This document shows positions 24,896 to 61,123 of a DNA stretch of 64,000 nt, in pieces. Source of the stretch: Alphaproteobacteria bacterium (lineage in GTDB: Bacteria > Pseudomonadota > Alphaproteobacteria > UBA828); NCBI GenBank assembly GCA_022820945.1, contig JAJEEP010000005.1, positions 1 through 64,000 of the forward strand, read 5' to 3'. The translations under genes were made by a program, and so were the position numbers. The notes under the pieces were generated by a model. That model made no database searches, was not told the DNA's origin, and saw nothing but the letters and a program-made list of their open reading frames with translations. How positions within the stretch are numbered: the stretch's first letter is position 1; every line of letters starts with the position of its first letter.

Positions 24896-26689
24896 CTACG
24901 CCGCGCAGCGTTCGCCCCTGAGCGCCTCGGTGGCTGCGATGTCGACGACGCGCTCTTCAGAGTCGATCACCACGCCGTAGGACGCCCGCGCTTCGTCGAT
25001 CGAGATGTAGTCGTCGAGAACGTCGTCGAGAACCTGCTCCACCGGCCGGACCATGGGGTCGCCCCAACCGCCCCCACCGCCGGTCTCGATACGGAAGGCC
25101 TCGCCCGGCGCGAAGCGATAGGCCGCGAGCAGCGGGTTGTGCCACGCGCCGTCGTCCGCCAGACCGCCGATCACCTCGGCGGAGCCGTCCGGCAGGAGCT
25201 TGCAGAGCCGCTGCGCGCTGCTTTCCTGCCCTCCTTCGACGCCAGGGCTGCCCGCGAGGGTCCGCGAGGTCTCGATGCTGAGCTCGGCGTTTCCGTTGAA
25301 GCGGAATTGCAGCCTGGCGCCGAGCCCGCCTCTGTGGGTGCCGGGCCCGGCGGAATCCTGCCTCAGGTCGAACGCCTCGTAGACGATGGGGTAGCAGAGC
25401 TCGGCCACCTCGGCCGAGAGATTCATGCAGTTGCCGGTGGGGTCGAACCTGACGCTGGCGCCGTCCATGTCGTTCATGCCGCCCCAACCGCCGGCAGGCA
25501 GGTCGGAGAACACGGTTTGGCGCCGGGTCTCCGGGTCGGTTACGGCACAGACCAGCCAATTCACGTCCGACATGGTGCCGCCCGTCGCGTCCTGCGGCAT
25601 GGCCTGGCTCATCGCCAGCCAGATCGAACTGTTGATCTTGGCGGCGGTCACCGTGGTACAGCCGATGGTGGGCGCGGGCCACTTGGCGTTGAGCCAGCAA
25701 TCGTCGGGCAGGACGATGTCGACGGCGTCGAACAGGCCGGCGTTGGCAGGGGCCTCGGGGCAGAGGTAGAAGCGCAGCGCCAGATAAGTGGCCGAGAACG
25801 TGTTGGCGAGCGGCGAGTTGATAGCGCCGACGCATTGCGGGTCCGACCCGGTGAAGTCGACGGTCATCTTCTCGCCTTCGGCGACGATCTTCACGGCGAG
25901 CTTGATCGGCTCCTCGCTGAAGCCGTCGGTATCCACGAAGTCGGTCACCGCGTACTCGCCGTCGGGGATCGCCTCGATGCGGCTGCGGCTGATGCGATTG
26001 GTGTAGGCGATCAGCTCGCGCATGGCGATCTCGACCGTCTCCAGTCCGTAGCGGGCGACCCCGCGGCTGAACTCCTGCTCGGCGACCTTCAGCGCTCCCA
26101 TGTGGGCCTGGATGTCGCCCTCGATGTATTCCGGGCAGCGCGTGTTGTTCTTGATCAGGGCCAGCAGGTCCTGGTTCATCTCGTATTCGTTGAAGAGCTT
26201 GAGCGGCGGGATGCGCAGCCCTTCGCCCGCGATATGCGTGCCGAAGGACTGCCCGCCAGCGGCGCCGCCGCCGAGGTCCTGCCAGTGCCCCCGGCTCACG
26301 GCGAAGCCCAGGAGCCTGTCGTCGCTGAAGATCGGCATCGTGAAGGTGGTGTCCGGAATGTGTGTCCCGCCCTGGAAGGGATCGTTCAGGACCACCACGT
26401 CGCCGGGGCGGAGCGCCTCCTTGCCGTACTTGTTGACCGATTCCTGGGCGGCGAAGTGCATGGCCGCCATGTGGATCGGACAACCCGGCGACTGGGAGAC
26501 GAGGCGGATGTCCGCGTCGTAGACGGCGTTGGAGTAGTCGAGGATGTCGCTCAGGATCGGCGAGAACGCGGTCTTCTGCAGCACCTTGCTCATGCGCTCG
26601 CAGCAGAAATCGAAATGGCTGCGCAGGACCTCGAAGGTCACCGGATCGAGATCTCGGATCTCCGATGCGTTGTAGTTGGCAGCTTCCAT
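24896..26689 (-). CDS. hydantoinase B / oxoprolinase-type subunit (HyuB 1)
   Basis: 597 residues from the ATG at 26689, preceded by GAGGGATCAAGG. Family features: DPVTFEVLRSHFDFCCERM at the N-terminus, VVLNDPFQGGTHIPDTTF, VSRGHWQDLGGGAAGG, and near the C-terminus DSAGPGTHRGGLGARLQF and GGGGGWGDPMVRP. HyuB works with HyuA in ATP-dependent opening of hydantoins, 5-oxoproline or in carboxylation of ketones. Its HyuA partner is the next gene upstream (26728). The N-terminus has no basic tail, unlike the three HyuB proteins at 31042, 45368 and 54243. Confidence 0.92.
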   Translation of the reverse strand: MEAANYNASEIRDLDPVTFEVLRSHFDFCCERMSKVLQKTAFSPILSDILDYSNAVYDADIRLVSQSPGCPIHMAAMHFAAQESVNKYGKEALRPGDVVVLNDPFQGGTHIPDTTFTMPIFSDDRLLGFAVSRGHWQDLGGGAAGGQSFGTHIAGEGLRIPPLKLFNEYEMNQDLLALIKNNTRCPEYIEGDIQAHMGALKVAEQEFSRGVARYGLETVEIAMRELIAYTNRISRSRIEAIPDGEYAVTDFVDTDGFSEEPIKLAVKIVAEGEKMTVDFTGSDPQCVGAINSPLANTFSATYLALRFYLCPEAPANAGLFDAVDIVLPDDCWLNAKWPAPTIGCTTVTAAKINSSIWLAMSQAMPQDATGGTMSDVNWLVCAVTDPETRRQTVFSDLPAGGWGGMNDMDGASVRFDPTGNCMNLSAEVAELCYPIVYEAFDLRQDSAGPGTHRGGLGARLQFRFNGNAELSIETSRTLAGSPGVEGGQESSAQRLCKLLPDGSAEVIGGLADDGAWHNPLLAAYRFAPGEAFRIETGGGGGWGDPMVRPVEQVLDDVLDDYISIDEARASYGVVIDSEERVVDIAATEALRGERCAA

Positions 26690-26727
26690 TGCCTTGATCC
26701 CTCGTGCGCCCCGGCTGCTCCGCGCGC

Positions 26728-28758
26728 TCAGACGGTTCCGTCCAACGCGATCAACAGGTTGCCGCTGCGGTCGACCGACGCCTGCGTGCCGGGCGGCAGG
26801 ACAGTCTCCGAATGATTGTAGTCTACAATGGCGGGGCCCGTGATGGCGACGCTGGGATAGAGCCGCTCGCCGGCATAGATCGCGACATCGTGCCATGATC
26901 CGCCAAAATAGACCGGCCGCGCGCCGCGCTCGACCTCGGCAGCAGCGCCAGCCTCGGCTCCATGCAGGGTCGGGCGTGCGAACGCGCCTGCGGCGGTGAC
27001 GCCGATGCTGACGAACTCGGCGGGGAAGGTTGGCGACTTGACGCCGTGCTCGGCTTCATGCGCGTCGTGGAAGGCATCTGCGATGTCCTGAGCGCGGTCC
27101 GCCGGGAGCGGGCTGTCACCCAGCGGCGTCAGCACCTCCCAGAACTGGCCCACGTAGCGCATCTGCGCGTGACGCGAGAGCATCATCTCGTCTTCCGCGA
27201 TGCCGTCTCGCGCGAGCAGGGCCCGGCCCTGGCTCTCCAGCTCCGAAAACATCCGGTTGAGGCGGTTGAAATCCGCTTCGTCCACGGAGGCGTAGTAGAA
27301 CTCCTCCAGGTCGTGGCGGATGTCCATGGCGGTCGCGCCGAAGGCCGAGGCGACGCCGGCGTGGGCCGGAACCACGATACGCGGGATGTTCATCGCGCGG
27401 GCGATCTGGCAGGCGTGCATCGGGCCTGCACCGCCGAAGCTCGCGAGCACGAAGTCGCGCGGGTCCCGGCCTCGATCGGTGAGCACGAGCTTGATCGCCT
27501 GGGCCATGTTCTCGCACGTAATGGAGATGATCGCCTCGGCCGCCTCCAGCCGGTCTATGCCGAGCCGGTCGGCAATCCTGCCCACGGCGCGCTCTGCGGC
27601 GTCGGCGTCGAGGGTGAGCTTGCCGCCCAGCGTGGCGTCCAGGCGGCCGAGGACGAAGTTCGCGTCCGTCACCGTCGCCTCGGCCCCGCCGCGATCGTAG
27701 CAGGCCGGCCCCGGATCGGAGCCCGCGCTCTGCGGCCCGACCCGCAGCGAGCCGCCTTTGTCGACCCAGGCGATCGACCCGCCGCCGGCGCCGACGCTCC
27801 GTATATCCAGCATCGGGATGGTGATCGGCACTTCCCATTCGAGCTGGTAGTCGTGGGTAAGCAGCCCTTCCCCGTGGTCGACGATGGAGGCGTCGAAGGT
27901 CGTGCCACCCATGTCGGTATGGATGATATTCGAGAACTCGGTCGTCTGGCTCAGGTAGCGGGCGTAGGCGACACCGCCGGCAGGCCCGGATTCCACCAGC
28001 TCCTCCGGACGCTCGATGGCGAGATCGACGCCCATCATGCCGCCGTTGCTCTTGAGCGCGAGCAGCGAGCCGGTGAAGCCGTTGTCGCTGAGCCCGGCCG
28101 CCAGGCGGTTGAAATAGTCGGTCATCACGGTGAGCAGCGCAGCGCGCACCACGGTCGTGGAGAAGCGCCCGTGCTCCCTGAACTTCCTCACTGTCTCGGA
28201 GGAGAGCGCGATGTGACAGTCGGGGTATTCCTTCAGCAGGATGTCGCGCATCCGGGCCTCATGCCGCCCGTCCACATAGGCGTTGATGAAGCAGATCGCG
28301 ACCGACTGAGCGCCCTGCTCCCTGATTTGGCGCGCGACGCGCCGTGCTTCCTCGTCGTCGAACGGGCTCAGTTCGTCGCCCGAAGCAGAGAGCCGGCATC
28401 CCAGGGTGAAGCGCTGGCGCCGGGGGACGATGGGCGCAGGCCGCTTCTGGCGCAGTGCGAACAGGTGCTGCCGGCGCTGACGCCCGATTTCGATGACGTC
28501 GCGAAAGCCCTCCGTCGTGACCATGGCGACCGGCGGATAGCTGCGCTCGACCAGGGCGTTGGTCGCGGTCGTGGTGCCGTGGACGAGCACGCTTATCTGT
28601 GCCGGGTCGATCGCGGCCGCCGCCAACGCGTTCAGCACACCCACCGAGCGGTCGCCGGCGGTGGTCAGCACCTTCGCCGAGATCGTCGCGCCGCTCTCTC
28701 CATTCGCCGCGAAGAGGTCGGTGAAAGTTCCTCCAACGTCAATTCCGACGTGCCACAT
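26728..28758 (-). CDS. hydantoinase A / oxoprolinase-type ATPase subunit (HyuA 1)
   Basis: 676 residues from the ATG at 28758. The actin-like ATPase fold is shown by GIDVGGTFTDLF (phosphate 1), LVHGTTTATNALVE, ESGPAGGVAYARYL and HTDMGGTTFDASIVDHG (phosphate 2/adenosine region), and SVGAGGGSIAWVDKGGSLRVGPQSAGSDPGPACY. It would phosphorylate or activate the substrate for the HyuB encoded 38 bases downstream. It is transcribed divergently from a second HyuA gene at 28964; identity between the two is modest. Confidence 0.92.
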   Translation of the reverse strand: MWHVGIDVGGTFTDLFAANGESGATISAKVLTTAGDRSVGVLNALAAAAIDPAQISVLVHGTTTATNALVERSYPPVAMVTTEGFRDVIEIGRQRRQHLFALRQKRPAPIVPRRQRFTLGCRLSASGDELSPFDDEEARRVARQIREQGAQSVAICFINAYVDGRHEARMRDILLKEYPDCHIALSSETVRKFREHGRFSTTVVRAALLTVMTDYFNRLAAGLSDNGFTGSLLALKSNGGMMGVDLAIERPEELVESGPAGGVAYARYLSQTTEFSNIIHTDMGGTTFDASIVDHGEGLLTHDYQLEWEVPITIPMLDIRSVGAGGGSIAWVDKGGSLRVGPQSAGSDPGPACYDRGGAEATVTDANFVLGRLDATLGGKLTLDADAAERAVGRIADRLGIDRLEAAEAIISITCENMAQAIKLVLTDRGRDPRDFVLASFGGAGPMHACQIARAMNIPRIVVPAHAGVASAFGATAMDIRHDLEEFYYASVDEADFNRLNRMFSELESQGRALLARDGIAEDEMMLSRHAQMRYVGQFWEVLTPLGDSPLPADRAQDIADAFHDAHEAEHGVKSPTFPAEFVSIGVTAAGAFARPTLHGAEAGAAAEVERGARPVYFGGSWHDVAIYAGERLYPSVAITGPAIVDYNHSETVLPPGTQASVDRSGNLLIALDGTV

Positions 28759-28845
28759 CGCGCTAGTCCCGGTGGTTCGATAGATCGTGAGAGCCGGTCG
28801 AAAACAGCCTGGTCGAGAATGCAACCCGGCAACGCGCGCCGGAGG

Positions 28846-28935
28846 CGCCGTCTTTCTAGCGGATCGCCGTCTTTACGGAAATATCGGCCGGCCCCAAAGA
28901 TGACCTCGGCAAGGGTCCTGTGATAGAGACAGGAC
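28846..28935. promoter_or_regulatory. repeats in the divergent HyuA control region
   Basis: The 205-base divergent region holds a direct repeat CGCCGTCTTT at 28846-28855 and 28865-28874 (19 bases apart), and an inverted repeat GTCCTGT-7 bases-ACAGGAC at 28915-28935, 28 bases before the plus-strand start. These are candidate operator sites for shared control of both hydantoinase operons. No regulator gene adjoins. Confidence 0.35.
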
Positions 28936-28963
28936 GGCAGTTGAATGCGCGGGGAGAGGCTTC

Positions 28964-31030
28964 ATGCGCCACATCATGGGCGTCGATATCGGCGGTACCT
29001 TCACGGATTTTTCGCTTATTGACGATCAGGGAGGCATCACGCTTTGGAAGGAGGCGACGACGCCTGCCGATCCGGGACTGGCCGTCCAGCGCGGCCTGGA
29101 AGCGCTCGCCGATGCGCAGGGCCTGGGGGTCGATTCCTTCGTCGGTAGTCTGGACCTCTTCGTGCACGGCCAGACCATCGCCACGAACACGGTGATCCAG
29201 CGCAACGGCCCCAAGACGGCGCTGCTCTGCACCGAGGGCTTCCGCGACGTTCTCTACTTCCGCGACGGCTTCAAGCCCGACCGCTACAACGTCAGCCTTC
29301 CCAGATCGAAAGACTTCATCCGCCGCGACCTGCGCCTACCGCTGACGGAGCGGATGGACTATCGCGGCGAGCCGCTGATCGAGCTCGACGAGGACTCGGT
29401 GCGGGCGGCGGCCCGGACGCTCAAGGAACAGGGCGTCGAATCCGTCGCCGTCGCGCTGCTCTGGTCTATCATGAACTCGAGCCACGAGGTCCGGGCGAAG
29501 GAAATCCTTGCCGAGGAGCTTCCAGACGTGCCCGTGGTGCTGAGCTCGGACGTACTGCCCATGATCCGCGAGTGGGAGCGGACATCGAGCACCGTCCTCA
29601 GCGCCTACATCCTGCCGCGCATCTCCAGCTACATGATCGCGCTCGAAAAATATCTCTCCGAGAACGGCTTCGGTCAGAACCTGCTTGTCATGCAGCTCAA
29701 CGGCGGCACGGCAACGGTCAAGCAGATCATCGAGCGGCCCATCTACGCGCTGGCCTCGGGCCCGGCGGCGGGGCCGGCAGCCGGCCTCTATTGCGCCGAG
29801 CGGGTGGGCGTCAACAACGTCATCACCATCGACATGGGCGGCACCAGCTTCGACGTGTGCATGGTGACCGACGGCGAGCCCGCGCTGACCAAGGACATGC
29901 GGGTGCACGACAACCCGGTCGGTGTTGCTGCGGTTGACGTGCATTCGATCGGCGCGGGCGGCGGCAGCATCGCCTGGATCGACAAGGGCGGCGCGCTGCA
30001 GGTGGGGCCGATGAGCGCCGGCGCGGAGCCGGGGCCTGCCTGTTACGAGCTGGGCGGCGACCGGCCGACCGTGACCGATGCCAACGTGGTCCTCGGCTAC
30101 ATCAATCCCGAATTCTTCCTCGGTGGCCGGCGGGACATCAATCCCGATGCCTCCTCCCGGGTTATCGAGGAGTCAATTGCGAAGCCTCTGGGCTTGAGCG
30201 TTGAACAGGCGGCCGACGGCATCTTCCAGATCGTCAACACCAACATGGTCGACGCGATCCGCGTGGTCTCGGTCGAGAAAGGCATCGACCCCCGTGGCTA
30301 CAGCCTGGTGGTGGGCGGCGGCGCGGGCGCCATCCATGCCGGAGCACTCGGCGTGGAACTCGGCATGAAGCAGGCGATCATTCCGCGCTACGGCGGGGTC
30401 TTCTGCTCCTACGGGATGATCGCGAGCGACGTCCGGCACGATCTGATCAAGGCCTTCGCGACCAACACCAGCGACTTCGACCTCGCTCGCGTCAACCAAA
30501 TATTCGCTGAGCTCGAAGCCGAGGCGATTGCCGAGCTCAAGGCGCAGGGCTTCGCCCGCTCGCGGATCAGGATCGCCCGCTTTGCCGATGCCAAGTACTC
30601 GAACCAGATTCACGAGCTGACGATCCCGCTGCCGTCCAAGGGCAAGATCAAGAAATCGGATATCGAGAACATCGCCGAGGCCTTCCACGGCCTGCACGAG
30701 CGCATGTTCTCCTACTGCGTGCGGGAGAGCGCGGTCGACCTGTTCCACTGGCGGATCACGGCGGAGGGCAGGTTGCCCGAGCGCGAGACGCCGATTCAGA
30801 AGCGCACGCGCAAGCCCGCGAGCGAGGCGCAGAAGGGCACGCGCATGGTCTATTTCAGGGCCTTCAAGAAGTACCGCCGGACCAAGATCTACGACGGCAG
30901 CAAGGTGCGCCACGGCATGACAATCGAAGGGCCGGCCGTGGTCGAGCAGGAGAATTCGACGATCGTGGTCCAGCCCAAGCACACGCTGAAGGTCAACCGC
31001 TACGACGATTTCGTCCTCGCGATCAACTAG
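28964..31030 (+). CDS. hydantoinase A / oxoprolinase-type ATPase subunit (HyuA 2)
   Basis: 688 residues, start preceded by GGGGAGAGG. It has GVDIGGTFTDFSLID, LFVHGQTIATNTVIQRNGPKTAL, GPAAGPAAGLYCAERVGVNNVITIDMGGTSFDV and SIGAGGGSIAWIDKGGALQVGPMSAGAEPGPACYELGG. It is the ATPase partner of the HyuB gene 11 bases downstream. The C-terminal part contains a basic stretch (IQKRTRKPASEAQKGTRM). It is a probable partner for the orphan HyuB proteins at 45368 and 54243 as well, since those resemble its own HyuB and have no HyuA beside them (inference). Confidence 0.92.
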   Translation: MRHIMGVDIGGTFTDFSLIDDQGGITLWKEATTPADPGLAVQRGLEALADAQGLGVDSFVGSLDLFVHGQTIATNTVIQRNGPKTALLCTEGFRDVLYFRDGFKPDRYNVSLPRSKDFIRRDLRLPLTERMDYRGEPLIELDEDSVRAAARTLKEQGVESVAVALLWSIMNSSHEVRAKEILAEELPDVPVVLSSDVLPMIREWERTSSTVLSAYILPRISSYMIALEKYLSENGFGQNLLVMQLNGGTATVKQIIERPIYALASGPAAGPAAGLYCAERVGVNNVITIDMGGTSFDVCMVTDGEPALTKDMRVHDNPVGVAAVDVHSIGAGGGSIAWIDKGGALQVGPMSAGAEPGPACYELGGDRPTVTDANVVLGYINPEFFLGGRRDINPDASSRVIEESIAKPLGLSVEQAADGIFQIVNTNMVDAIRVVSVEKGIDPRGYSLVVGGGAGAIHAGALGVELGMKQAIIPRYGGVFCSYGMIASDVRHDLIKAFATNTSDFDLARVNQIFAELEAEAIAELKAQGFARSRIRIARFADAKYSNQIHELTIPLPSKGKIKKSDIENIAEAFHGLHERMFSYCVRESAVDLFHWRITAEGRLPERETPIQKRTRKPASEAQKGTRMVYFRAFKKYRRTKIYDGSKVRHGMTIEGPAVVEQENSTIVVQPKHTLKVNRYDDFVLAIN

Positions 31031-31041
31031 GGGAGCGAGTC

Positions 31042-32985
31042 ATGCCCAACATATCGACGGTGCATGGAGCCAAGCCGCAGGCCAAGAGAATCGCGAAGCG
31101 CCGGGTCAGCGCGCCCGCACGGAAGAGCGCCAAGGCGGCTGTCGACCCGATCACCTTCTCGGTCGTTCTCAATCGCTTCAACACGATTGCGAACGAGATG
31201 ACGCTGACCATGGAGAAGACCTCCTGGACCTCGATCATCGCGCTCGCGCGCGACTTCTCTTGCGCCATCTACGACGCCAAGGCGCGCCAGATCTGCATGA
31301 TGGACGCGCTGCCGGTGCACACCAACTCGATGCATGTGGTCCTGAAGGAGATCGCGCGGGTCTTCGAGGGCGACATCCACGACGGCGATGTCATCGTCTG
31401 TAACGACGCCTACAGCGGTAATACCCACGTCGGCGATTTCGTCACCGCCTGCCCGGTGTTCCACAAGGGCAAGCACATGTTCTGGAGCATGACCAAGGGG
31501 CATCAGCTCGATTGCGGCGCCTTCATCCCCACCAGCACGCCCGCCGCCGCCAAGGACGTGTGGCAGGAAGGGCTGCAGCTGCCGCCGATCAAGTTCTACG
31601 AGAAGGGCGAGCGGCGGGAGGACGTGGTCCGCATGTACCTCGCCAACGTGCGCTGGCAGGAGTGGCTCTACGGCGACCTGATGGCGCAGCTCGGCTCGAT
31701 CTGGACCGGCAAGCGGCGGCTCATCGAGCTTGCGTCGCACTACGGCAACGACGAGGTGGAGCGCTACATCGAGGCGATCTTCGACTACGCCGACCAGCGC
31801 ATGGCACAGGAAATCCGCCAGATGCCGGACGGCGAGTACGAGGGGACCTCCTGGCTCGACACCGACGGTCAGGGCGGCACCGACATTCCCGTGAACGCGC
31901 GGGTCTCGATCCGGGACGACCGGGTTCACGTCGATTTTGGCGGCTCGGCGCCGCAGACGCCGGGCGCGAACAACTCCTCATTCGGCGTGATGCAGGCCGC
32001 GGCAGGCATCCCGATTCTCTGCACGATCGACCCCTCGATTCCCCATAACGACGGCTGCCTGCGCCATATCACGGCCGAGGCGCCGCTCGGCTCGGTGTGC
32101 AACGCGCAGTATCCGGCATCCACGGCACTCGCCACCATCGGCCCCGACGACACGATGCAGGACGCCGTCTACAAGGCGCTCGCCCACGCGGTGCCCGAGC
32201 GCGTCACCGGCGGCAACGGCCGGGTCAGCTGCGTGCCCTTCTTCTCCGGCACCGACACCCGCGACGGGCAGGATCGCTCCTGGGGCTGCATGTTCTTCAA
32301 CGGCGGGCCGGCGGGCGGGGCATCGTCCAAGGAGGATGGCTGGCCTTTGCTGATCACCTCGGCCGGCATGGGCGGGCTCAAGATCCTGAGCGTCGAGATG
32401 AGCGAGATGCTCTACCCCATGCGCGTCGATAAGCAGGAGATCGGCGCCGATTCCATGGGTCACGGCGAGCATCACGGCGGCCCCGGCGTCGAGATTCAAA
32501 TTACGCCCATCGGCGGCCCGATCGAGTGCCACCTGTTCGGAGACGGCACCGCCAATCCGCCTCACGGCGTGATGGGCGGCACGACCGGGATAGGCGGCGG
32601 CAGCTACAAGGAGAACCTGGAAACGGGCAAGCGCACCTATTGCTCCTCAAAGGGGCTCCTCATGATCGAGGAGAACGAGATCTGAGTGGCGCACTCCAGT
32701 GGCGGCGGCGGTTACGGCGATCCGCTGAAGCGCGATCCCGAGGCGGTGCTGGAAAGCATCTTCGAGGGGCTGCTCACGGTCGAATGCGCGGCCGAGGTCT
32801 ATGGCGTCGTCATCAACAAGGCGACCATGACCATCGATTGGAACAAGACCGAGGCGCGGCGTGAGAAGATGGCGGCGGAGCGCGGCCCGCTCGAGGTGGT
32901 GGTGCCGACCACGCCAGGCGCCTCCGACTGGGTCGAGAATCGGCTCCGCGACGGCGACGAGTACCTGATCGACCCGCAGTGACGG
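31042..32985 (+). pseudogene. hydantoinase B-type subunit (HyuB 2) interrupted by an in-frame TGA
   Basis: The frame encodes 547 residues, then TGA at 32683-32685, then continues in the same frame for 98 more to 32982 before a TGA at 32980-32982 region end. Together they give about 646 residues, matching the intact paralogues (650 and 647). The stop falls exactly where the paralogues have Trp (EDEVWVGLS and ENEVWGGTS; here ENEI-stop-VAHSS), i.e. TGG to TGA. A GTG follows the stop immediately with GAGGAG 12 bases before it, so reinitiation could yield a split protein. It may be a nonsense mutation, a sequence error or a working two-piece subunit. The N-terminus is a basic tail (GAKPQAKRIAKRRVSAPARK). 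Confidence 0.8.
32686..32982 (+). CDS. C-terminal fragment of HyuB 2, possible separate polypeptide
   Basis: 98 residues from a GTG adjoining the premature stop. It begins MAHSSGGGGYGDPLKRDPEAVL and aligns with the end of HyuB at 45368 and 54243 (GGGGYGDALERDPEAVLESVFDGLLSLESAEDIYGVVINR). It ends VENRLRDGDEYLIDPQ, like the paralogues' NLRQGDDYLIDPQ. No mutations beyond the TGA are seen, so the tail is still under constraint or the change is very recent. Confidence 0.6.
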   Translation: MAHSSGGGGYGDPLKRDPEAVLESIFEGLLTVECAAEVYGVVINKATMTIDWNKTEARREKMAAERGPLEVVVPTTPGASDWVENRLRDGDEYLIDPQ

Positions 32986-33008
32986 GTCGCGCGAGACGGG
33001 ACCGGACC

Positions 33009-33923
33009 ATGGCGAGGCTCAATACATTCGATGCCGACGTCGGCGCTGACACGGTGGCGGCGGCGATCGAGCGGGACGGCTACGCGATCGTGCGGGGGCT
33101 TCTTGACCCGGAGACCCTTGCGCGGCTTGAGGGCGAACTGACTCCACATCTGGAAGCGACGGAGCTCGGCGACCCCGACGCGTTCATGGGGCACAAGACG
33201 AAGCGCTTCGGCGCGTTGCTCTCACGTTGCCCGACGACGCGGGACATGGTCGTTCACCCGCTCGCACTCGGGATCGCCGACCGCGTGCTCGGGCCGTACT
33301 GCGCGCGTTACCAGGTTCATTACACCGGTGTCATGCACATCGAGCCCGGCGAAACGGTGCAGACGATGCACAGGGATACCGGCCCGTTTCCTATCCAGAA
33401 CCCTGCACCGCCGCTCACGCTCGCGACCATGTGGGCGGTCAGCGATTTCTCGGCTGAGAACGGAGCGACCCGCATCGTGCCGGGCAGCCATCGTTGGACC
33501 GACGACCGGGTTCCGGAGCCGGACGAGATCACGCAGGCCGAGATGCCGGCGGGCTCGATGCTGATGTATGTCGGCAGCCTGATTCACGGCGCCGGAGCCA
33601 ATCGTGCGAACGGCGCTCGCTGCGGCGTCGCGCTTCATTACGCCCTCGGCTGGCTGCGCCAGGAGGAGAACCAGTATCTCGCCGTGCCCATGGAAGAGGC
33701 GCGGAGCTTCCCCCATCAATTGCAGTGCCTGATGGGCTATGAGCTGGCCACGGTCAATCTGGGCTTCGTCGACCACAAGCACCCGAACGATATCCTGAAC
33801 GGGACCGCCGGCGAACAGGCGGGCGAGCTCGGACCTCAGGAGCTGATGGATGCGGACAACGCGATCCAGCGCTTCAAGGTCGAGGGCACCGCAGCCGTCG
33901 GCCGCGCGCGCATGAGGGTGTAA
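33009..33923 (+). CDS. phytanoyl-CoA dioxygenase (PhyH) family protein
   Basis: 304 residues from the ATG at 33009. It shows Fe(II)/2-oxoglutarate oxygenase motifs H121-x-D123 in MHRDTGPFPIQ and distal H193 in LIHGAGANR, with TRIVPGSHRW typical of PhyH. It begins 26 bases after the HyuB 2 tail and ends the HyuA2-HyuB2 operon, so it probably acts in the same pathway, hydroxylating an amide or acyl intermediate (inference). Many members of this group remain uncharacterised. Confidence 0.9.
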   Translation: MARLNTFDADVGADTVAAAIERDGYAIVRGLLDPETLARLEGELTPHLEATELGDPDAFMGHKTKRFGALLSRCPTTRDMVVHPLALGIADRVLGPYCARYQVHYTGVMHIEPGETVQTMHRDTGPFPIQNPAPPLTLATMWAVSDFSAENGATRIVPGSHRWTDDRVPEPDEITQAEMPAGSMLMYVGSLIHGAGANRANGARCGVALHYALGWLRQEENQYLAVPMEEARSFPHQLQCLMGYELATVNLGFVDHKHPNDILNGTAGEQAGELGPQELMDADNAIQRFKVEGTAAVGRARMRV

Positions 33924-33964
33924 GCGACGGTCAAGTAGTCGGCCCGCCCTTGCAGGCCCTCACC

Positions 33965-34870
33965 TCATAGCGGATCCCAACTGAACACGTCGCCGGAGCG
34001 GTCGAGCGCGGCGAAGTGGCCCTTCAGCGCCGGCACGGCATGGTCGGCGATTGCCTGCGCATCCCAGCCCTCGCTCCGGTGGACGCTGCGCGCGGGCCGG
34101 AAGGGGTCGAAGAGGAAGATCTCGTTGTGGCGCGCGGCGAAGACCTGTCCCGTGATGTCGTACGCCGCGTCCGACGCAAGAAACACGGCGAGCGGGGCGT
34201 TCTTCTCAGGCGTCATCTTCTTGAGGCGCTCGATCCGCTCCCGCTGTTCGTCGGTGTCGGCCGGGATTTCGCTCGTCATCCGGCTCCAGGCGAAGGGCGC
34301 GATGCAATTGGAGCGCACGTTGAAGCGTTTCATGTCGAGGGCGATCGACTTCGAGAGCGCGCAAATGCCGAGCTTGGCCGCCGCGTAGTTGGCCTGCCCG
34401 AAGTTGCCGATGAGCCCCGACGTGCTGGTCATGTGCACGAAGGCGCCCGACTCCTGACGTCGGAAGTGCTCCGCCGCCGCGCGGCTCAGGAAGAAGCTGC
34501 CGTTGAGGTGCACGCCGATGACGGAGAGCCATTGCTCGGCCGTCATCTTGTGAAAGATCGTGTCGCGCAGGATGCCGGCGTTGTTCACCACGATGTCGAT
34601 CCGCCCGAACGCCTCGATTGCCGTTTGCACGATGGCGCGTGCGCTATCCCAACTCTCGACGCTGTGCGTGTCGACGACGGCCGTTCCCTGGGCTTCCTCG
34701 ATCAGCCGCCTGGTCTCCTCGGCCGGGGTCGCCGAGCCACCCTCGCCCGACACCGAGACGCCAATATCGTTGACGACGACGGAGGCCCCGGTGCGCGCCA
34801 GCGCCAGGGCGACCTCGCGGCCGATGCCGCCGCCCGCGCCGGAGACAATTGCAACCCTTCCCTCGTTCAC
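33965..34870 (-). CDS. SDR-family dehydrogenase, (3R)-hydroxyacyl-CoA dehydrogenase-like
   Basis: 301 residues from a GTG at 34870 (GGGAGAAG precedes it); an upstream TTG at 34909 is poorer. SDR motifs: VSGAGGGIGREVALALA, VVNNAGILRD and the catalytic AFVHMTSTSGLIGNFGQANYAAAKLG. The insert VVVNDIGVSVSGEGGSATPAEE and SWDPL-type C-terminal extension match the dehydrogenase domains of MFE-2-like beta-oxidation enzymes. It follows a MaoC hydratase gene by about 35 bases; together they would hydrate and oxidise enoyl-CoAs, for example in side-chain or branched acyl degradation. Confidence 0.85.
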   Translation of the reverse strand: MNEGRVAIVSGAGGGIGREVALALARTGASVVVNDIGVSVSGEGGSATPAEETRRLIEEAQGTAVVDTHSVESWDSARAIVQTAIEAFGRIDIVVNNAGILRDTIFHKMTAEQWLSVIGVHLNGSFFLSRAAAEHFRRQESGAFVHMTSTSGLIGNFGQANYAAAKLGICALSKSIALDMKRFNVRSNCIAPFAWSRMTSEIPADTDEQRERIERLKKMTPEKNAPLAVFLASDAAYDITGQVFAARHNEIFLFDPFRPARSVHRSEGWDAQAIADHAVPALKGHFAALDRSGDVFSWDPL

Positions 34871-34905
34871 CGTTCTTCTCCCGTCATTGCTGCCGCGCCG
34901 CTGTT

Positions 34906-35751
34906 TCAACCGAACGTTGCGAGTCCGTTGTGCAGGACAAAGTCATCGCGCTCAACGACCCGTGCGCGAAAGGCGCCGTTCCGCCACATCTCCACCTCGA
35001 CGGTCTCGCCCGGAAAGACCGGGGCCGAAAAACGGGCGGACATGCCGCGGAGCGATTGGGGATCGTCGTCTGCAAGCGCGCGCAGGACGGCGTGGCAGGC
35101 GATGCCGAAGGTGCAGAGGCCGTGGAGGATCGGCCGGTCGAAGCCCGCCTGCTGCGCGACCGCAGGGTCGAGATGCAGCGGGTTGGGATCGCCGTTCAGG
35201 CGATAGAGGAGCGCTTGCTCCGGCCGCGTCTCGACGGCAACGGTGCAGTCGGGATCGCCGCCGGGCTCCTCCGGCGCAGGACGCGGCGTGCCGGAAGGGC
35301 CATCGTAACCACCATCGCCACGGAGCATGAGCGTGCGCGTCTCGGTCGCGATCACGTCGCCGCTGTCGGCGTCGTGCAAGTCCTTCTCGAGGTAGAGCAG
35401 CGCGCCCTTCGCAGCGCCCTTGTCGACGATATCGACGATTCTGGTTATTCCAACGACCGTACCGGCGCTGGGGATGGGTCTCTTCAGAGAGAAGCCCTGC
35501 TCGGCATGGACCAGCCGGCCCGCATCGACAGTGGTGCGCGGGTCGGCCAGCCAGAAGCCGGGATGGCCGAGCACCGAGCAGAACGACGGCACGATGCGGG
35601 GACCCTTGTGGTCGTCCACGAACTGCAGCTGCCACGGGTCGAGAGGATCGCGACCAAACCCGATGGAGAGCGCGTAACGGACCGCGTCGAGCGGGCCGAA
35701 GGTCTGGCGGGCCTCGGGAATCTCGAAGCCCATGAGCGCGTCGTAGTTCAC
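34906..35751 (-). CDS. MaoC-family enoyl-CoA hydratase 2-like protein
   Basis: 281 residues with two hot-dog folds. The C-terminal hotdog has the hydratase-2 motif: ALLYRLNGDPNPLHLDPAVAQQAGFDRPILHGLCTFGI with D and H catalytic residues. It starts at GTG 35751 (an ATG at 35733 is also possible); no strong ribosome binding site is seen. It would hydrate trans-2-enoyl-CoA to (3R)-hydroxyacyl-CoA, the substrate for the SDR encoded next. Confidence 0.88.
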   Translation of the reverse strand: MNYDALMGFEIPEARQTFGPLDAVRYALSIGFGRDPLDPWQLQFVDDHKGPRIVPSFCSVLGHPGFWLADPRTTVDAGRLVHAEQGFSLKRPIPSAGTVVGITRIVDIVDKGAAKGALLYLEKDLHDADSGDVIATETRTLMLRGDGGYDGPSGTPRPAPEEPGGDPDCTVAVETRPEQALLYRLNGDPNPLHLDPAVAQQAGFDRPILHGLCTFGIACHAVLRALADDDPQSLRGMSARFSAPVFPGETVEVEMWRNGAFRARVVERDDFVLHNGLATFG

Positions 35752-35842
35752 GGCGCTGGATTATCGGGGCGCAGCGGGCGGGTCACGGCCATCGCAATAG
35801 AGCACGGAGCCTGCCGCTGCCGGGATTGGCGCGGCAGGCCGC

Positions 35843-37045
35843 TCAGCCGTCGTAGTGTCCGACGATCGCCACGCTACAGACGTTTTGCACCGGGTGGCCG
35901 CCCAGGTTGTGGGTCAGGCCGTAGCGCATGCTGTCGATCTGGCGCTCCTCCGCGCGGCCGTGGAACTGCAGGTAGATCTCGTAGAGCATCCGCAGGCCGG
36001 AGGCCCCGATGGGGTGGCCGAAGCACTTCAGGCCGCCATCGATCTGGCACGGCGTGTCGCCATCGGCGTCGTAGCGGCCGTCGAGCACCGCCTTCCAGGC
36101 CTGGCCCTCGTCGGCGAGGCCGAGGTCCTCCATGGTCACCAGCTCGGTGATCGAGAAGCAGTCGTGAACCTCGGTCGCGCTGATCTCCTTGCGCGGGTCG
36201 TCGATGCCGGCCTCCTCGTAGGCGCGCTGGGCGGCGATGCGCGTGGTCTTGAAGTGGGCGCCATTCCAGCTGTTGAAGCCGATCTCCTCGCCGTTCGAGA
36301 CGCTGAGCTGCAGGGCCTTGACCGTCACGACGTCGGTCTTGCCCAGGGTCATGGCGATCTCGGGCGTGGTGACGATGGCACACGCCGCGCCGTCGCTCAC
36401 GCCGCAGCAATCGAACAGACCGATGGGCTCCGCCACCATCGGCGCCCCGATCGCCTGCTCGTGGGTGATCTCGCGGCGCAGGTGCGCCTTGGGATTGCGC
36501 GCGCCGTTCGCGTGGCTCTTGACCGAGACATGCGCCATTGCGCGCTTCAGATCGTCCCTGTCAATGCCATGAGCCCCGCGATAGCCGGCTGCGAGCTGCG
36601 CGAAGGCGCCGGGGGCGGAGACGTTGGGGGAGAACAGATCGTTGGTTACCCCGCGGGTCCGGGCCGGCAGGCCGCCGTAGCCTGTGTCCTTCAGCTTCTC
36701 CACGCCGAGCGCGAGCGCGAAGTCCGCGGCGCCCGAGGCCACGGCGTAGCAGGCGCCGCGGAAGGCCTCGGTTCCGCTGGCGCACATATTCTCGACGTGG
36801 GTGACCGGGATGTAGCCGAGCCTGAGCGAGGTCGCGAGCGGCAGCGCGCTCGGCCCGACGTTGACGGAATCGAACGCCGTGCTCAGCCATGCCGCATCGA
36901 TCTGCGAGCGTTCGATCCCGGCGTCGGCGATGCACTCCTCGAACGCCTCGGCCATCAGGTCCGAGGGCTCGGCAGCCCATCGCTCGCCGAACTTCGAGCA
37001 CCCCATGCCGAGGATTGCGACCTTGTCTCGAATTCCGCTGGCCAT
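35843..37045 (-). CDS. thiolase-family protein (acetyl-CoA acetyltransferase / SCP-x type)
   Basis: 400 residues. The thiolase nucleophile C88 is in VENMCASGTEAF and the active-site His and C-terminal segments are visible in EVHDCFSITELV and CFGHPIGASGLRMLYEI. It resembles the SCP-x/lipid-transfer class of thiolases used in steroid and branched-chain acyl-CoA breakdown. It begins 21 bases after the HMG-CoA-synthase-like gene and probably forms a complex with the OB-fold part of that protein, as known for many thiolase/DUF35 pairs (inference). Confidence 0.9.
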   Translation of the reverse strand: MASGIRDKVAILGMGCSKFGERWAAEPSDLMAEAFEECIADAGIERSQIDAAWLSTAFDSVNVGPSALPLATSLRLGYIPVTHVENMCASGTEAFRGACYAVASGAADFALALGVEKLKDTGYGGLPARTRGVTNDLFSPNVSAPGAFAQLAAGYRGAHGIDRDDLKRAMAHVSVKSHANGARNPKAHLRREITHEQAIGAPMVAEPIGLFDCCGVSDGAACAIVTTPEIAMTLGKTDVVTVKALQLSVSNGEEIGFNSWNGAHFKTTRIAAQRAYEEAGIDDPRKEISATEVHDCFSITELVTMEDLGLADEGQAWKAVLDGRYDADGDTPCQIDGGLKCFGHPIGASGLRMLYEIYLQFHGRAEERQIDSMRYGLTHNLGGHPVQNVCSVAIVGHYDG

Positions 37046-45367: not shown

Positions 45368-47320
45368 ATGGCACGATCGAAGAAGTCCAATGGCAAGAGC
45401 CGCCCGGCGGCCCTCGGTCGCACCGCGCGCACCACACGCCCCAAGGGCCGGGGCCGAAAGACGAACGGGCACGCCGATATCGACCCGATCACCTTCTCCG
45501 TCATCCTCAACCGCTTCAACACGATCGCCAACGAGATGACGCTCGTCATGGAGCGGACGGCGTGGACCTCCATCATCGCGCTCTCGCACGACTTCTCCTG
45601 CGCGATCTACGATCGGAAGGACCAGCAGGTCTGCATGATGGACGCGCTGCCGATCCACACGAATTCCATGCACGTCGTGCTGAAGGAGATTGCGCGGGTT
45701 TTCGATGGAGACATCCACGACGGCGATGTGATCGTCTGCAACGATCCCTACAGCGGCAACACCCACGTGGGCGACTTCGTGACCGCGTGCCCCGTGTTCT
45801 ACAAGGGCGAGCACCTGTTCTGGAGCGTGACCAAGGGTCATCAGCTCGATTGCGGCGCCTTCATGCCGACCAGCGTGCCGGCTGCGGCGAAGGACGTGTG
45901 GCAAGAGGGGCTGCAGCTCCCGCCGATCAAGTTCTACAAGAAGGGCAAGCCCTGCGAGGACATCATCCGCATGTACCTCGCGAACGTGCGGTGGAAGGAC
46001 TGGCTCTACGGAGACCTGATGGCGCAGCTCGGGTCCATCTGGACCGGCCGGCGGCGCATCCTCGAAATGCTGGAGCGCTACGGCAAGGAGGAGCTGGAGG
46101 GCTACATCGACGCGATCTTCGATTATTCGGACCAGCGCATGGCGGCCGAAATCCGTGACATGCCCGACGGCGAGTATCACGGCGATGCCTGGCTGGATAC
46201 CGATGGGCAGGGCGGCACCAACATCCCGATTCACGCCAAGGTCACGATCAAGGGCGACAAGGCGCACGTCGACTTCACAGGCTCCGCGCCGCAGACGCCC
46301 GGCTCCAACAACAGCACCCAGGGCGTGATGCAGGCGGCGGCCGGCATCCCGATCATGTGCATGATCGACCCCACAATCCCACACAATGACGGCTGCCTCA
46401 GGCACATCACGGCGGAGGCGCCGGCAGGCACGGTCTGTAACGCCAACCACCCGTCCTCGACTGCACTGGCGACGATCTGCCCCGGCGACACCATGCAGAT
46501 CGCGGTCTGGAAGGCGCTGGCCCGGGCCATGCCGGAGCGCGCGACCGGCGGCATGCCCGCCATTCATTGCGTGCCCATGTTCTCGGGCACCGACCGGCGC
46601 AACGGCGAGTCCAAGGAGTGGGGCAGCATGGTGTTCAACGCCTCGCCCGGCGGCGGGGCCGGGGTCGGCACCGACGGCTGGCCCATCATGCTCTCGCCCG
46701 CTGCCCTTGGCGGGCAGAAGATCATCAGTGTCGAGGTGAGCGAGATGCTCTACCCGATGCACTTCGACAAGCAGGAGATCGCCGTCGATTCGATGGGGCA
46801 CGGGGAGGACATCGGCGGCCCCGGCGTGGATATCCGGATTCGCCCGGTGAGCGGAGTGATGGACTGCAACATATTCGGTGACGGCAACATGAACCCGCCC
46901 TACGGCACGATAGGCGGGACGCCCGGCATCGGCGGCGGCAACTACAAGGAAAACCTGACCACCGGCAAGCGCACCTTCTGCACGGCCAAGGGAAATCTTG
47001 TCATCGAGGAGGACGAAGTCTGGGTGGGCCTTTCCACCGGCGGCGGCGGGCGAGGCGATCCATTGAATCGCGATCCCCAAGGGGTGCTGGAGAGCGTTCT
47101 CGACGGCATGATCTCGCTCGAGAGTGCCGAGGACATTTACGGCGTCGTGATTGATCGCGTCACCATGACGGTCGATCTGGCAGCAACCGAATCGCTGCGC
47201 GCAAGGTTACGTGCGGCGCGGGGCCCGGTCGAAGTCGTCAGGCCCGATCGTCCCGACGCGGGCGACTGGGTGCAGCGGAACTTGCGTCAGGGCGACGACT
47301 ACCTGATCGACCCGCAATAG
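45368..47320 (+). CDS. hydantoinase B / oxoprolinase-type subunit (HyuB 3), orphan
   Basis: 650 residues from the ATG at 45368 (GGGAGGAAA ahead); an ATG at 45341 and a much longer open frame upstream are not used. DPITFSVILNRFNTIANEM, VIVCNDPYSGNTHVGDFV, TKGHQLDCGAF, NDGCLRHITAEAP and SMGHGEDIGGPGVDIRI match HyuB proteins. The first ~40 residues are a basic tail (KKSNGKSRPAALGRTARTTR). No HyuA gene adjoins; the closest partner type is HyuA 2 (28964). It keeps the EVWVG Trp lost in HyuB 2. Confidence 0.92.
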   Translation: MARSKKSNGKSRPAALGRTARTTRPKGRGRKTNGHADIDPITFSVILNRFNTIANEMTLVMERTAWTSIIALSHDFSCAIYDRKDQQVCMMDALPIHTNSMHVVLKEIARVFDGDIHDGDVIVCNDPYSGNTHVGDFVTACPVFYKGEHLFWSVTKGHQLDCGAFMPTSVPAAAKDVWQEGLQLPPIKFYKKGKPCEDIIRMYLANVRWKDWLYGDLMAQLGSIWTGRRRILEMLERYGKEELEGYIDAIFDYSDQRMAAEIRDMPDGEYHGDAWLDTDGQGGTNIPIHAKVTIKGDKAHVDFTGSAPQTPGSNNSTQGVMQAAAGIPIMCMIDPTIPHNDGCLRHITAEAPAGTVCNANHPSSTALATICPGDTMQIAVWKALARAMPERATGGMPAIHCVPMFSGTDRRNGESKEWGSMVFNASPGGGAGVGTDGWPIMLSPAALGGQKIISVEVSEMLYPMHFDKQEIAVDSMGHGEDIGGPGVDIRIRPVSGVMDCNIFGDGNMNPPYGTIGGTPGIGGGNYKENLTTGKRTFCTAKGNLVIEEDEVWVGLSTGGGGRGDPLNRDPQGVLESVLDGMISLESAEDIYGVVIDRVTMTVDLAATESLRARLRAARGPVEVVRPDRPDAGDWVQRNLRQGDDYLIDPQ

Positions 47321-54242: not shown

Positions 54243-56186
54243 ATGGCTTCGACCTCCACAGCGCGCCGCGCCGTGCGGCAGATCAAGGACAAGGACAAGC
54301 CTCGGACGGCCGCCAGGAAACGCGGCAACGGGGCTGCAAACGCCGTCGATTCGATCACCTTCTCCGTCATCCTCAATCGCTTCTCCACCATCGCGAACGA
54401 GATGACGCTGACCATGGAGAAGACCGCCTGGACCTCCATCATCGCGCTCGCGCGCGACTTCTCCTGCGCGATCTACGACGCCAAGGCGCGCCAGATCTGC
54501 ATGCAGGATGCCCTGCCCATCCATACGAATTCGCTGCACGTCGTGCTGGGCGAGATCGCGCGGGTCTTCGAGGGCGACATCCATGACGGCGATGTCATCG
54601 TCTGCAACGACGCTTACAGCGGCAACACCCACATCGGCGACTTCGTCACGGCTTGCCCCGTGTTCCACCAGGGCAAGCACATGTTCTGGAGCGTAGCGAA
54701 GGGCCATCAGCTCGACTGCGGCGCGTACATCCCCACCAGCGTGCCGGCGCCTGCCAGGGATGTCTGGCAGGAGGGGCTGCAGCTGCCGCCGATCAAGTTC
54801 TACGAGAAGGGCGAGCGGCGTGAGGACGTGGTGCGCATGTACCTCGCCAACGTGCGCTGGCAGGAGTGGCTCTACGGCGACCTGATGGCGCAGCTCGGCT
54901 CGATCTGGACCGGCCGGCGGCGCCTCGTCGAGCTTGCGGCGCACTACGGCAACGACACGCTGGAGCGCTACGCCGAGGCGATTCTCGATTACTCCGACAG
55001 GCGCATGGCCGAGGAGATCCGCGCAATCCCCGATGGCGACTACGACGGCATGTCGTGGCTCGATTCGGACGGTTATGGCACCACGAACATCCAGGTCGGC
55101 GCCCGGGTCTCGGTGCGTGACGACAAGGTCCACATCGATTTCTCGAACTCGGATCCGCAGAACCCGAGCGGCAACAACTCGTCGTATGGCGTAATGCAGG
55201 CTGCGGCGGGTATCCCGGTGCTCTGCTCCATCGACCCCACCATTCCTCACAACGACGGCTGCCTCCGGCACATCACGGCAGACGCGCCCAAGGGCACCGT
55301 CTGCAACGCGCAATACCCGGCGTCCACCGCGCTTGCCACCGTGGGCCCCGGCGACACCATGCAGGAGGCGGTGTGGAAGGCGCTGGCGCACGCCGTGCCG
55401 GAGCGCGTCATGGGCGGCAGCGGCAAGGACGGCAACCTGCCGATGTTCTCCGGCACCGACACGCGGAGCGGCAAGCCGGTCGAGTGGGGCTGCATGCTGT
55501 TCAACGGCGCGCCCGCCGGCGGAGCCACGTCGTCGTCGGACGGTTGGCCGCTGATCATGACCTCGGCCGGCATGGGCGGGCTCAAGATCATGAGCGTGGA
55601 GCTCTGCGAGCTGTTCTACCCCTACCGCATCGACCGGCAGGAAATCGCGACCGATTCCATGGGGCACGGCAAGCATATCGGCGGCCCCGGCGTCGACATC
55701 CAGGTCAGCCCGACCGACGGCGGCTTCCAGGTCGAGCTCTTCGGCGAGGGGCAGGGCAACCCGCCCTTCGGCGTGATGGACGGAACGCCCGGCATCGGCG
55801 GCGGCAGCTACAAGGAGGATCTGGAGACCGGCAAGCGGACCTACTTCTCCTCCAAGGGCCGCTTCGTGGTCGGCGAGAACGAGGTCTGGGGCGGTACGTC
55901 AAGCGGCGGCGGGGGCTACGGCGATGCGCTGGAGCGCGATCCCGAGGCCGTGCTGGAGAGCGTCTTCGACGGCCTGCTGTCACTCGAAAGCGCCGAAGAC
56001 ATATACGGCGTCGTCATCAACCGGGCGATGATGACCATCGACTTCACCGCGACCGAGAAATTGCGCGCCAAGATGGCGAAGAAGCGCGGCCCGCTCCAGG
56101 TGACCTCGCCCAGCCGTCCCGGCGCCGCCACCTGGATTCAGAAACAGCTGCGCCAGGGCGACGAGTTTCTCGTCGACGCGCAATAG
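54243..56186 (+). CDS. hydantoinase B / oxoprolinase-type subunit (HyuB 4), orphan
   Basis: 647 residues. It has DSITFSVILNRFSTIANEM, VIVCNDAYSGNTHIGDFV, AKGHQLDCGAY, NDGCLRHITADAP and SMGHGKHIGGPGVDIQV. Very similar to HyuB 2 (31042) and HyuB 3 (45368), judged by eye at roughly two thirds to three quarters identity. The N-terminal ~35 residues form a basic tail (RRAVRQIKDKDKPRTAARKR). It has no HyuA partner alongside and is flanked by two SnoaL-like genes, 134 bases after the first and 30 before the second. Confidence 0.92.
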   Translation: MASTSTARRAVRQIKDKDKPRTAARKRGNGAANAVDSITFSVILNRFSTIANEMTLTMEKTAWTSIIALARDFSCAIYDAKARQICMQDALPIHTNSLHVVLGEIARVFEGDIHDGDVIVCNDAYSGNTHIGDFVTACPVFHQGKHMFWSVAKGHQLDCGAYIPTSVPAPARDVWQEGLQLPPIKFYEKGERREDVVRMYLANVRWQEWLYGDLMAQLGSIWTGRRRLVELAAHYGNDTLERYAEAILDYSDRRMAEEIRAIPDGDYDGMSWLDSDGYGTTNIQVGARVSVRDDKVHIDFSNSDPQNPSGNNSSYGVMQAAAGIPVLCSIDPTIPHNDGCLRHITADAPKGTVCNAQYPASTALATVGPGDTMQEAVWKALAHAVPERVMGGSGKDGNLPMFSGTDTRSGKPVEWGCMLFNGAPAGGATSSSDGWPLIMTSAGMGGLKIMSVELCELFYPYRIDRQEIATDSMGHGKHIGGPGVDIQVSPTDGGFQVELFGEGQGNPPFGVMDGTPGIGGGSYKEDLETGKRTYFSSKGRFVVGENEVWGGTSSGGGGYGDALERDPEAVLESVFDGLLSLESAEDIYGVVINRAMMTIDFTATEKLRAKMAKKRGPLQVTSPSRPGAATWIQKQLRQGDEFLVDAQ

Positions 56187-58040: not shown

Positions 58041-59267
58041 ATGAGCGAGACCCACCGCACGACGCCGGGCGCGGCGCCCTCCTATTACCCGGTGATTCGC
58101 CTGATTACCTCGTTGGTCCTCGTGACCATGGGCGGCGCTGCCATGTATGCGGTGATCGTGGTCCTCAAGCCCGTGTCCTTCGAGTTCGGTGTGGGCCGTG
58201 GCGTCGCGTCGCTCCCCTACATGATGTTCATGGTGACGGGCGGGATCGGCGGCGTGGTGATGGGCCGCCTTGCCGACCGCTTCGGCGTGATGGTGCCGGC
58301 GCTGATCGGCTGCGTCGGCCTGCCCGCCGGCATGGCCGGCGCCGCCTTCGCCGAGGAGTTCTGGCAATTCTGTATCTCGCTCGGGGTGCTGTCCGGCCTG
58401 CTGGGCACTTCCGCCCTCTTCGCCCCGATGGCGGCCGACATCTCGCACTGGTTCACCCGGCGGCGCGGGCTCGCCGTCGCGATCGTGATTACCGGAACCT
58501 ATTTGGCAGGCGCGCTGTGGCCGCCGATCGTCCAGGCCTCGCTCGATGCGCGGGGCTGGCGCGAGACCTTCGTCCTGATCGCCATTCTCATGGCGTGCGT
58601 CATGCTGCCGCTGATTGCGTTGCTCTACCGCAAGCCGGCCGCGCTGATCGAGGCGCAGGCGGCGCGCATGGCGCCCGGCGCAGGCAGACCGCTGGGCGTC
58701 ACTCCCGGCACGCTTCAATGCCTGATTTGCGCGGCCGGGCTCGGCTGCTGCATCGCGATGGCGGCACCCCAGGTGCACATCGTCGCCCACGTCACCGATC
58801 TCGGATACGCCGCCCAGCACGGCGCCGCGATGCTCTCGCTCATGCTCGGCACCGGTATCGTGAGCCGGATCGGCTCCGGCTTCATCTCGGACCGGATCGG
58901 CGGGCTGCGCACGCTGCTGCTCGGCTCAGTCCTGCAGGCCATCACGCTGATGGCCTTCCTCGGTGCCGACACGCTCACCCTGCTCTACGTGGTCTCGGCC
59001 GTCTTCGGCCTCTCCCAGGGCGGGATCGTGCCGTCCTACACCATCATCATCAGGACGTTCTTCCCCGCGCACGAAGCGGGCCGCCGGGTCGGCTGGGCGA
59101 TGCTCTTTACCTTCGCAGGGATGGCGCTCGGCGGCTGGATGGCCGGTGCGCTGTACGACCTGACGGGCTCCTACACCGCGTCGTTCATCAACGCGGTCGG
59201 ATTCAACGTGCTGAACGCCGCGATCGTGGTCTTCCTGGCGCAGCGCCACCGGGCGCTGGCAGCTTAG
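58041..59267 (+). CDS. MFS-family transporter
   Basis: 408 residues with about 12 hydrophobic helices, MFS_1 type. The cytoplasmic motif A-like GRLADRFG lies between helices 2 and 3 and SGFISDRIGGLRTLLLG between helices 8 and 9. The family includes oxalate/formate and monocarboxylate carriers. It is divergent from the YhfX-like gene by 113 bases, and its stop overlaps that of the convergent HyuB gene by four bases. The start at 58041 has only a weak ribosome binding site. Confidence 0.88.
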   Translation: MSETHRTTPGAAPSYYPVIRLITSLVLVTMGGAAMYAVIVVLKPVSFEFGVGRGVASLPYMMFMVTGGIGGVVMGRLADRFGVMVPALIGCVGLPAGMAGAAFAEEFWQFCISLGVLSGLLGTSALFAPMAADISHWFTRRRGLAVAIVITGTYLAGALWPPIVQASLDARGWRETFVLIAILMACVMLPLIALLYRKPAALIEAQAARMAPGAGRPLGVTPGTLQCLICAAGLGCCIAMAAPQVHIVAHVTDLGYAAQHGAAMLSLMLGTGIVSRIGSGFISDRIGGLRTLLLGSVLQAITLMAFLGADTLTLLYVVSAVFGLSQGGIVPSYTIIIRTFFPAHEAGRRVGWAMLFTFAGMALGGWMAGALYDLTGSYTASFINAVGFNVLNAAIVVFLAQRHRALAA

Positions 59268-61123
59268 CTCGCCTCCGCCCTTTGCTCGCCGCCGTTGAGC
59301 CGCTCCCGGCGGAGCGCCTCGGTCGCCGCCATATCGACGGCGAGGTCGTCGTCCTCCTCCGAGCCCACGATCACCACGCCGTAGAGCGCCTCCGCCTTGG
59401 CGCGCGAGACGTAGCGCTCGTTCACGTCGTCGAGCACTCGCTCGGGCTCGCGCTCCAGCGGGTTGCCGTAGCCCCCGCCGCCGTTGTCGATGGCGTGCAA
59501 GCGCGAGCCCGGCTCCAGGTGGCAGTAGGCGTCGGTCTCGTAGACTTCTCGTGTGCCGTCCGTCGCAATCTTGGCCTGATAGCCCGCCTGCGAGGGCAGG
59601 CCGCCGCGCACGCCCTGCGGCAGGATGGTGAGCCCGTTGCATATGTTGATGACCAGCATGGGGTCATGGCGCGGGCCGAAGATCACCTCCGAGGCCGGCC
59701 CGCCGCGCCGGCGGCCGGCACCGCAGGAATCCACCAGCGCGCGTACGCTGTCGACCTGAAACGGGAAGCGCTGCTCGTTGACCTCGATACTGTCGCGGTA
59801 GACCAGGCCGACGCTCACCGGGTTGACCAGGCCGTGCATACCGTCGGTCTCGGCCGAGGCCGCCATGCCGCCCGCCGACATGAACATCTGGTTGACGTAG
59901 GGGGCGCCCTCCCGCCGCCAGTCCTTGCCCGAGCAGACCCCGGTGCCCGCACCGTTGCAGAAGTTGCCCTGGCTGAAGCCGTAGCCGTCCCCCAGGGAGG
60001 CGAAGGCCGACTGGATCAGGTTGATGATCATGTCGGTCATGTTGGTGGTGGCGACCGAGCAGCTGTGCGGGAAGCGCGGGATGCCGACGACGCAGTTCTC
60101 CCGGAGCAGCACCTCGAGCCGGCGGAAGCTGCCGGCGTTGTGCGGGATGTCGGAATCGAGGCAGGCGAAGACCGCCTGGGCCGCCGCCATGGTCGAGGTG
60201 ACGCGGGTGAGGTTCATGCCGGCGTCCACGCAATCGGGGTTGTCGCGCAGATCGACCGTGATGAAGCCGTCCTCGCCGTCGATATCGACGGTCACCTTGA
60301 TCGGGATGCCGTCCGGCAGGAACGGCTGGATCGGGTCGTGGCAGCCTTCGTTCTCGAGCCGTCCGCTGGGCAGCGCCCGGATCGACTCGCGCGCCCGCCG
60401 CTCGGAGTAGGCGAGCCATTCGCCGATGAAGGCGCGCACCGCCTTGGCGCCGTACTTGTCGAGGAACTCCTTGAGCCGCCGCTCGCCGATCCGTGCCGCG
60501 CCGATGGCCGCGAGGTAGTCGCCGAACCACTGGTCGGGCACCCGGATGCGGCGCCGGCACATGCGGACGATGTCGTCGATGTCGCGATAGTCGCTCTGCA
60601 CCTGGACGCAGGGGAAGATCAGCGCGCCCTCGTGATAGACGTCGGTGGCCGCGGCGAAGTAAGTGGTCGGCTGGCTGTTTCCCACGTCCGCCTGGTGGGC
60701 CTTGATGCCCACGGTGAAGAAGTGCTCGCCCTCGTGGAATACCGGCACCAGGATCGTGTGATCGGCCGCGTGGCTGTTGCCGCCGTAGGGGTCGTTGTCG
60801 AGAAAGGCGTCGCCCTCGCGGAAGTCCGGGTGCCTCTCGCTCATGATGGTGGTCTGGATGTTCATGCCGAAGACGTGGATCGGCATGGCCTCGGCCGTCG
60901 CCAGCACCTCGTGATCGGACGTGATGATGGCGCAAGAGAAGTCCCGCGCGATGCCGATGACCGCCGAGCGCGCGCTGTGCAGCACGGTGTTGGTCATCTC
61001 GCGGCAGATCGCGTCCATGCGGTTGGCCATGACCGCGAGATTGAGGGCGCTCAGGCGCTCTTCGGTCCCGGCCGGGGCGGCGGTGGACACGGCCGCGGAT
61101 GCAGCAGGCGATGGATCGTTCAT
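59264..61123 (-). CDS. hydantoinase B / oxoprolinase-type subunit (HyuB 5)
   Basis: 619 residues from the ATG at 61123; a much longer upstream open frame is antisense to the aminotransferase gene and not used. MDAICREMTNTVLHSARSA, DAFLDNDPYGGNSHAADHTILVP, HQADVGNSQPTTYF, HNAGSFRRLEVLL and DNGGGGYGNPLEREPERVL are the family segments. It is clearly HyuB-type but distant from HyuB 2-4, with an N-terminus that is not basic. No HyuA gene adjoins, so the catalytic partner is elsewhere. Confidence 0.9.
   Translation of the reverse strand: MNDPSPAASAAVSTAAPAGTEERLSALNLAVMANRMDAICREMTNTVLHSARSAVIGIARDFSCAIITSDHEVLATAEAMPIHVFGMNIQTTIMSERHPDFREGDAFLDNDPYGGNSHAADHTILVPVFHEGEHFFTVGIKAHQADVGNSQPTTYFAAATDVYHEGALIFPCVQVQSDYRDIDDIVRMCRRRIRVPDQWFGDYLAAIGAARIGERRLKEFLDKYGAKAVRAFIGEWLAYSERRARESIRALPSGRLENEGCHDPIQPFLPDGIPIKVTVDIDGEDGFITVDLRDNPDCVDAGMNLTRVTSTMAAAQAVFACLDSDIPHNAGSFRRLEVLLRENCVVGIPRFPHSCSVATTNMTDMIINLIQSAFASLGDGYGFSQGNFCNGAGTGVCSGKDWRREGAPYVNQMFMSAGGMAASAETDGMHGLVNPVSVGLVYRDSIEVNEQRFPFQVDSVRALVDSCGAGRRRGGPASEVIFGPRHDPMLVINICNGLTILPQGVRGGLPSQAGYQAKIATDGTREVYETDAYCHLEPGSRLHAIDNGGGGYGNPLEREPERVLDDVNERYVSRAKAEALYGVVIVGSEEDDDLAVDMAATEALRRERLNGGEQRAEAS

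Follow-up and report, generated by a model that had tools for sequence, protein, structure and literature searches.

A premature in-frame stop codon, TGA at positions 32683-32685 (+ strand), interrupts a HyuB gene in the 64,000-nucleotide stretch of DNA analysed here (the window; GCA_022820945.1, contig JAJEEP010000005.1), where it replaces the TGG codon of the conserved residue Trp548. We favour, with moderate confidence, a very recent lineage-specific or strain-level nonsense mutation, which would have turned one of 43 HyuB paralogues into a pseudogene. The host is an uncultured alphaproteobacterium, probably related to Rhodospirillales. The stop was observed directly, as were its absence from three close sister genomes and from both paralogues and the scarcity of subsequent decay; the effect on the protein and the tolerance of its loss are inferred. 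A search of titles and abstracts returned no report on the TGA site. The parts of the locus are as follows:

28964-31030, + strand: HyuA-type subunit (ATP-binding), 688 aa, intact (Pfam PF05378, PF01968 and PF19278); presumed partner of the interrupted HyuB
31042-32685, + strand: HyuB head, closed by the premature TGA after 547 aa (matches positions 1-489 of the 519 in the PF02538 profile, scoring 468.7 bits by itself)
32668-32673 (to within a base), + strand: GAGGAG, proposed in the original prediction as a candidate ribosome-binding site; encodes Glu-Glu
32683-32685, + strand: in-frame TGA in place of the TGG of Trp548 (direct reading and alignment)
32686-32982, + strand: HyuB tail, 98 codons, intact and in frame with the head, with GTG first and a terminal TGA (ORF list and alignment)
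33009-33923, + strand: PhyH-type dioxygenase, the next gene downstream, intact in the window and in the sisters (PF05721)
24896-26896, 31042-32982, 45425-47320, 54243-56186 and 59264-61100: the five Hydantoinase_B copies of the window

No Rfam families were found in 28000-36000, nor were promoter- or terminator-like sites found in 32400-33200.

The sequence around the site reads GAG AAC GAG ATC TGA GTG GCG CAC TCC (ATC TGA GTG GCG at 32680-32691), and the TGA is in register with the ATG at 31042. Two HyuB ORFs share this one frame, 31042-32685 (547 aa) and 32686-32982 (98 aa), with a read-through length of 646 residues. The description given in the original prediction was borne out, i.e. the frame runs in register across the TGA, the downstream 98 residues are intact (about 646 in sum), the aligned codon is TGG (Trp) in the two close paralogues (45425-47320 and 54243-56186), and a GTG lies directly 3' of the TGA with GAGGAG about 12 bases ahead. 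In a PF02538 profile search of the genome, HyuB scored above the family cut-off and the Hydantoinase_B match (31144-32724; 490.6 bits) spanned the stop, with one TGA inside it. Across the Pfam region, the interrupted gene alone among the 43 HyuB copies contains an internal stop, and none was found among the copies listed for genus mates. A chance open frame was ruled out by comparison with the sisters, in which one uninterrupted gene matches it at 97% protein identity.

Comparisons were performed against three sister genomes of the same genus, all draft metagenome bins with records labelled Rhodospirillales or Alphaproteobacteria. In their orthologues (L010, L011 and L012; 96-97% protein identity) codon 548 is TGG within a clean single frame, a finding that the original prediction had itself named as counting against it; the stop is thus absent from the sister orthologues, as expected of a recent nonsense pseudogene. 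The aligned codon is TGG in nine loci from other genomes (L010-L018; 61-97% protein identity), six of which are more distant, while at 40-45% identity it encodes Trp in one locus and Tyr in two. Gene order around HyuB is the same in the three sisters over 11-14 kb, HyuA is intact and conserved in all of them, and neighbour genes compared codon by codon with the sisters showed no stop in the window copy. A six-frame comparison with a sister was swamped by stops in non-coding shadow frames, and a gene-by-gene comparison was used instead. Among 39 window genes set against sister G002, HyuB alone was cut short by a large amount, losing 99 aa (at 59264-61100 a difference of 28 aa was left uncounted, as the gene-list stretch there overruns the gene's own frame). 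Three HyuB paralogues of one subgroup lie within 26 kb (31042-32982, 45425-47320 and 54243-56186); the interrupted copy shares 73% and 69% protein identity with the other two, and G002 has all three at matching places.

The proposed lesion would be a single G-to-A transition in the third base of the conserved Trp codon (TGG to TGA), leaving a HyuB truncated at 547 residues. The protein was compared with CapB of the Pseudomonas jessenii caprolactamase (6yra_B; PF02538), which sequence similarity (E 2e-101) places in the same fold family. The CapB metal-site residues D41, H99, D102 and H124 (PMC8453981) align with D71, H129, D132 and H154 of HyuB, all upstream of the stop, and the window DNA shares with CapB both this Asp/His/Asp/His set and the downstream GGGGYGDPL motif. 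The CapB barrel extends to residue 531 and is followed by a C-terminal domain at 533-581 (PMC8453981); in the alignment to 6yra_B, Trp548 falls near CapB residue 520, ahead of the barrel end. Unlike CapB, the HyuB frame is cut by a TGA, at codon 548, so that a complete barrel and C-terminal domain are not encoded in one polypeptide. The stop deprives the protein of its C-terminal domain as well as the last barrel segment, in which the glycine run GGGGYGDP lies; the tail (32686-32982) includes the GGGGYGDPL motif and that domain. Although it retains the metal site, the 547-residue product is probably inactive or unstable, and without the barrel end and C-terminal domain it is unlikely to fold or function. 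The predicted structure of the read-through protein, obtained from a shallow alignment, had a mean pLDDT of 36 and was set aside.

Three readings had been offered in the original prediction: synthesis in two pieces, read-through, or a freshly broken gene. Under the first, translation would stop at the TGA and restart at the adjoining GTG, and the 547-aa and 98-aa pieces would assemble into a newborn split HyuB at UGAGUG. The adjoining stop and start codons, the GAGGAG upstream of the GTG and the intact tail are all compatible with such a restart, but both the GTG (Val549) and the GAGGAG (Glu-Glu) are ancestral coding sequence, unchanged in the three stop-free sisters. Since these elements are older than the stop, the TGA-GTG junction results from one base change, and no sign of a designed restart was seen there. 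A Shine-Dalgarno spacing of about 12 bases is also longer than usual. The cut lies inside the barrel, ahead of its last segment, rather than at a domain border, and the tail by itself found no family match in a Pfam search. No orthologue or paralogue split at the Trp548 site was seen among the close relatives examined, and the split is thus not a shared one. We found no positive support for two-piece synthesis and regard it as highly improbable.

Programmed or natural read-through of the UGA (Trp, Sec or near-cognate) would instead yield a full-length protein. Termination at UGA is leaky in many bacteria, and the tail has kept its frame and sequence, both of which would suit this reading. However, the tRNAs that ARAGORN named in the draft genome include a single tRNA-Trp(CCA) and none with a UCA anticodon, the tRNA-Sec model matches over the cut-off coincided with tRNA-Ser gene places, and SelB matches lay below the cut-off with none above it; neither a decoding tRNA nor SelB for UGA recoding was therefore found. 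As the bin is ∼95% complete, this absence of UGA-decoding machinery is strong, not absolute. The genome also encodes RF2, 18 of 38 window genes end in TGA, more than in any other stop, the RNA 3' of the stop is no more stably folded than shuffled sequences (z -0.6), and the TGA is conserved in no relative examined. With neither suppressor or Sec machinery nor an unusual RNA structure in its favour, read-through appears about as improbable as a restart, and the two taken jointly carry little weight. The draft contains 37 tRNA matches, all except one named by ARAGORN; the match that it missed (L081; G000:C66:10788-11095; 57.5 bits, 108 bases) carries a long insertion within its anticodon arm and, by eye, the anticodon TCT (Arg).

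Changes specific to the window branch (head N2/S35; tail N1/S2; HyuA N4/S39) gave no sign of relaxed selection in the head, the tail or HyuA. Had the tail been neutral over the whole branch, ∼16-20 replacements would be expected, against one observed. A neutral share of the branch above ∼0.1-0.2 is disfavoured (P below about 0.05-0.1, varying with transition bias) in this test, which is based on three tail changes and one simple codon model. The stop, if recent, would have arisen within roughly the final fifth of the branch, or later. Changes in the tail are too few for long neutral drift, which supports the freshly broken reading over the other two. The original prediction further held that an intact tail favours recent change or function. 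A near-unchanged tail implies that the stop is recent, or is not real, or that the tail is still used, and sequence alone cannot tell these apart. We rank continued translation of the tail as the least likely, below a recent stop and a consensus or strain artefact, although unrelaxed selection in the head, tail and HyuA also fits an assembly error or continued tail use.

An assembly, base-call or strain-consensus artefact, with the living population carrying TGG and a normal 646-codon HyuB, is a possibility that we take seriously but consider less likely. The bin, in draft form, comprises 178 contigs and has an estimated contamination of 6.45%, and one substitution, accompanied by no other damage, is the sole difference. 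Against this, the assembly contains no TGG-bearing second copy of the HyuB gene (its closest other match being a paralogue with 80% DNA identity), and no other gene among the 39 compared is shortened relative to G002, suggesting that the contig is not generally error-ridden. The contig scan that recovered the sisters found no second assembly of the species. The TGA is ordinary whether it arose by mutation or by assembly error.

The locus resembles a recent nonsense pseudogene in having one in-frame stop from one transition, an intact downstream sequence and intact sister orthologues; it differs in that fixation in the population is unproven and the TGA may be an assembly artefact. Hydantoinase_B copies number 43 in the 4.66 Mb genome and 23-51 in genus mates. 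Loss of one HyuB may be tolerated through this large number of paralogues, provided that they are redundant in substrate. The stop affects one copy in a large family of paralogues and is of small significance beyond annotation. If it is an artefact, it serves as a warning against annotating this HyuB gene as split; if it is real, it would represent early gene loss inside the HyuB expansion.
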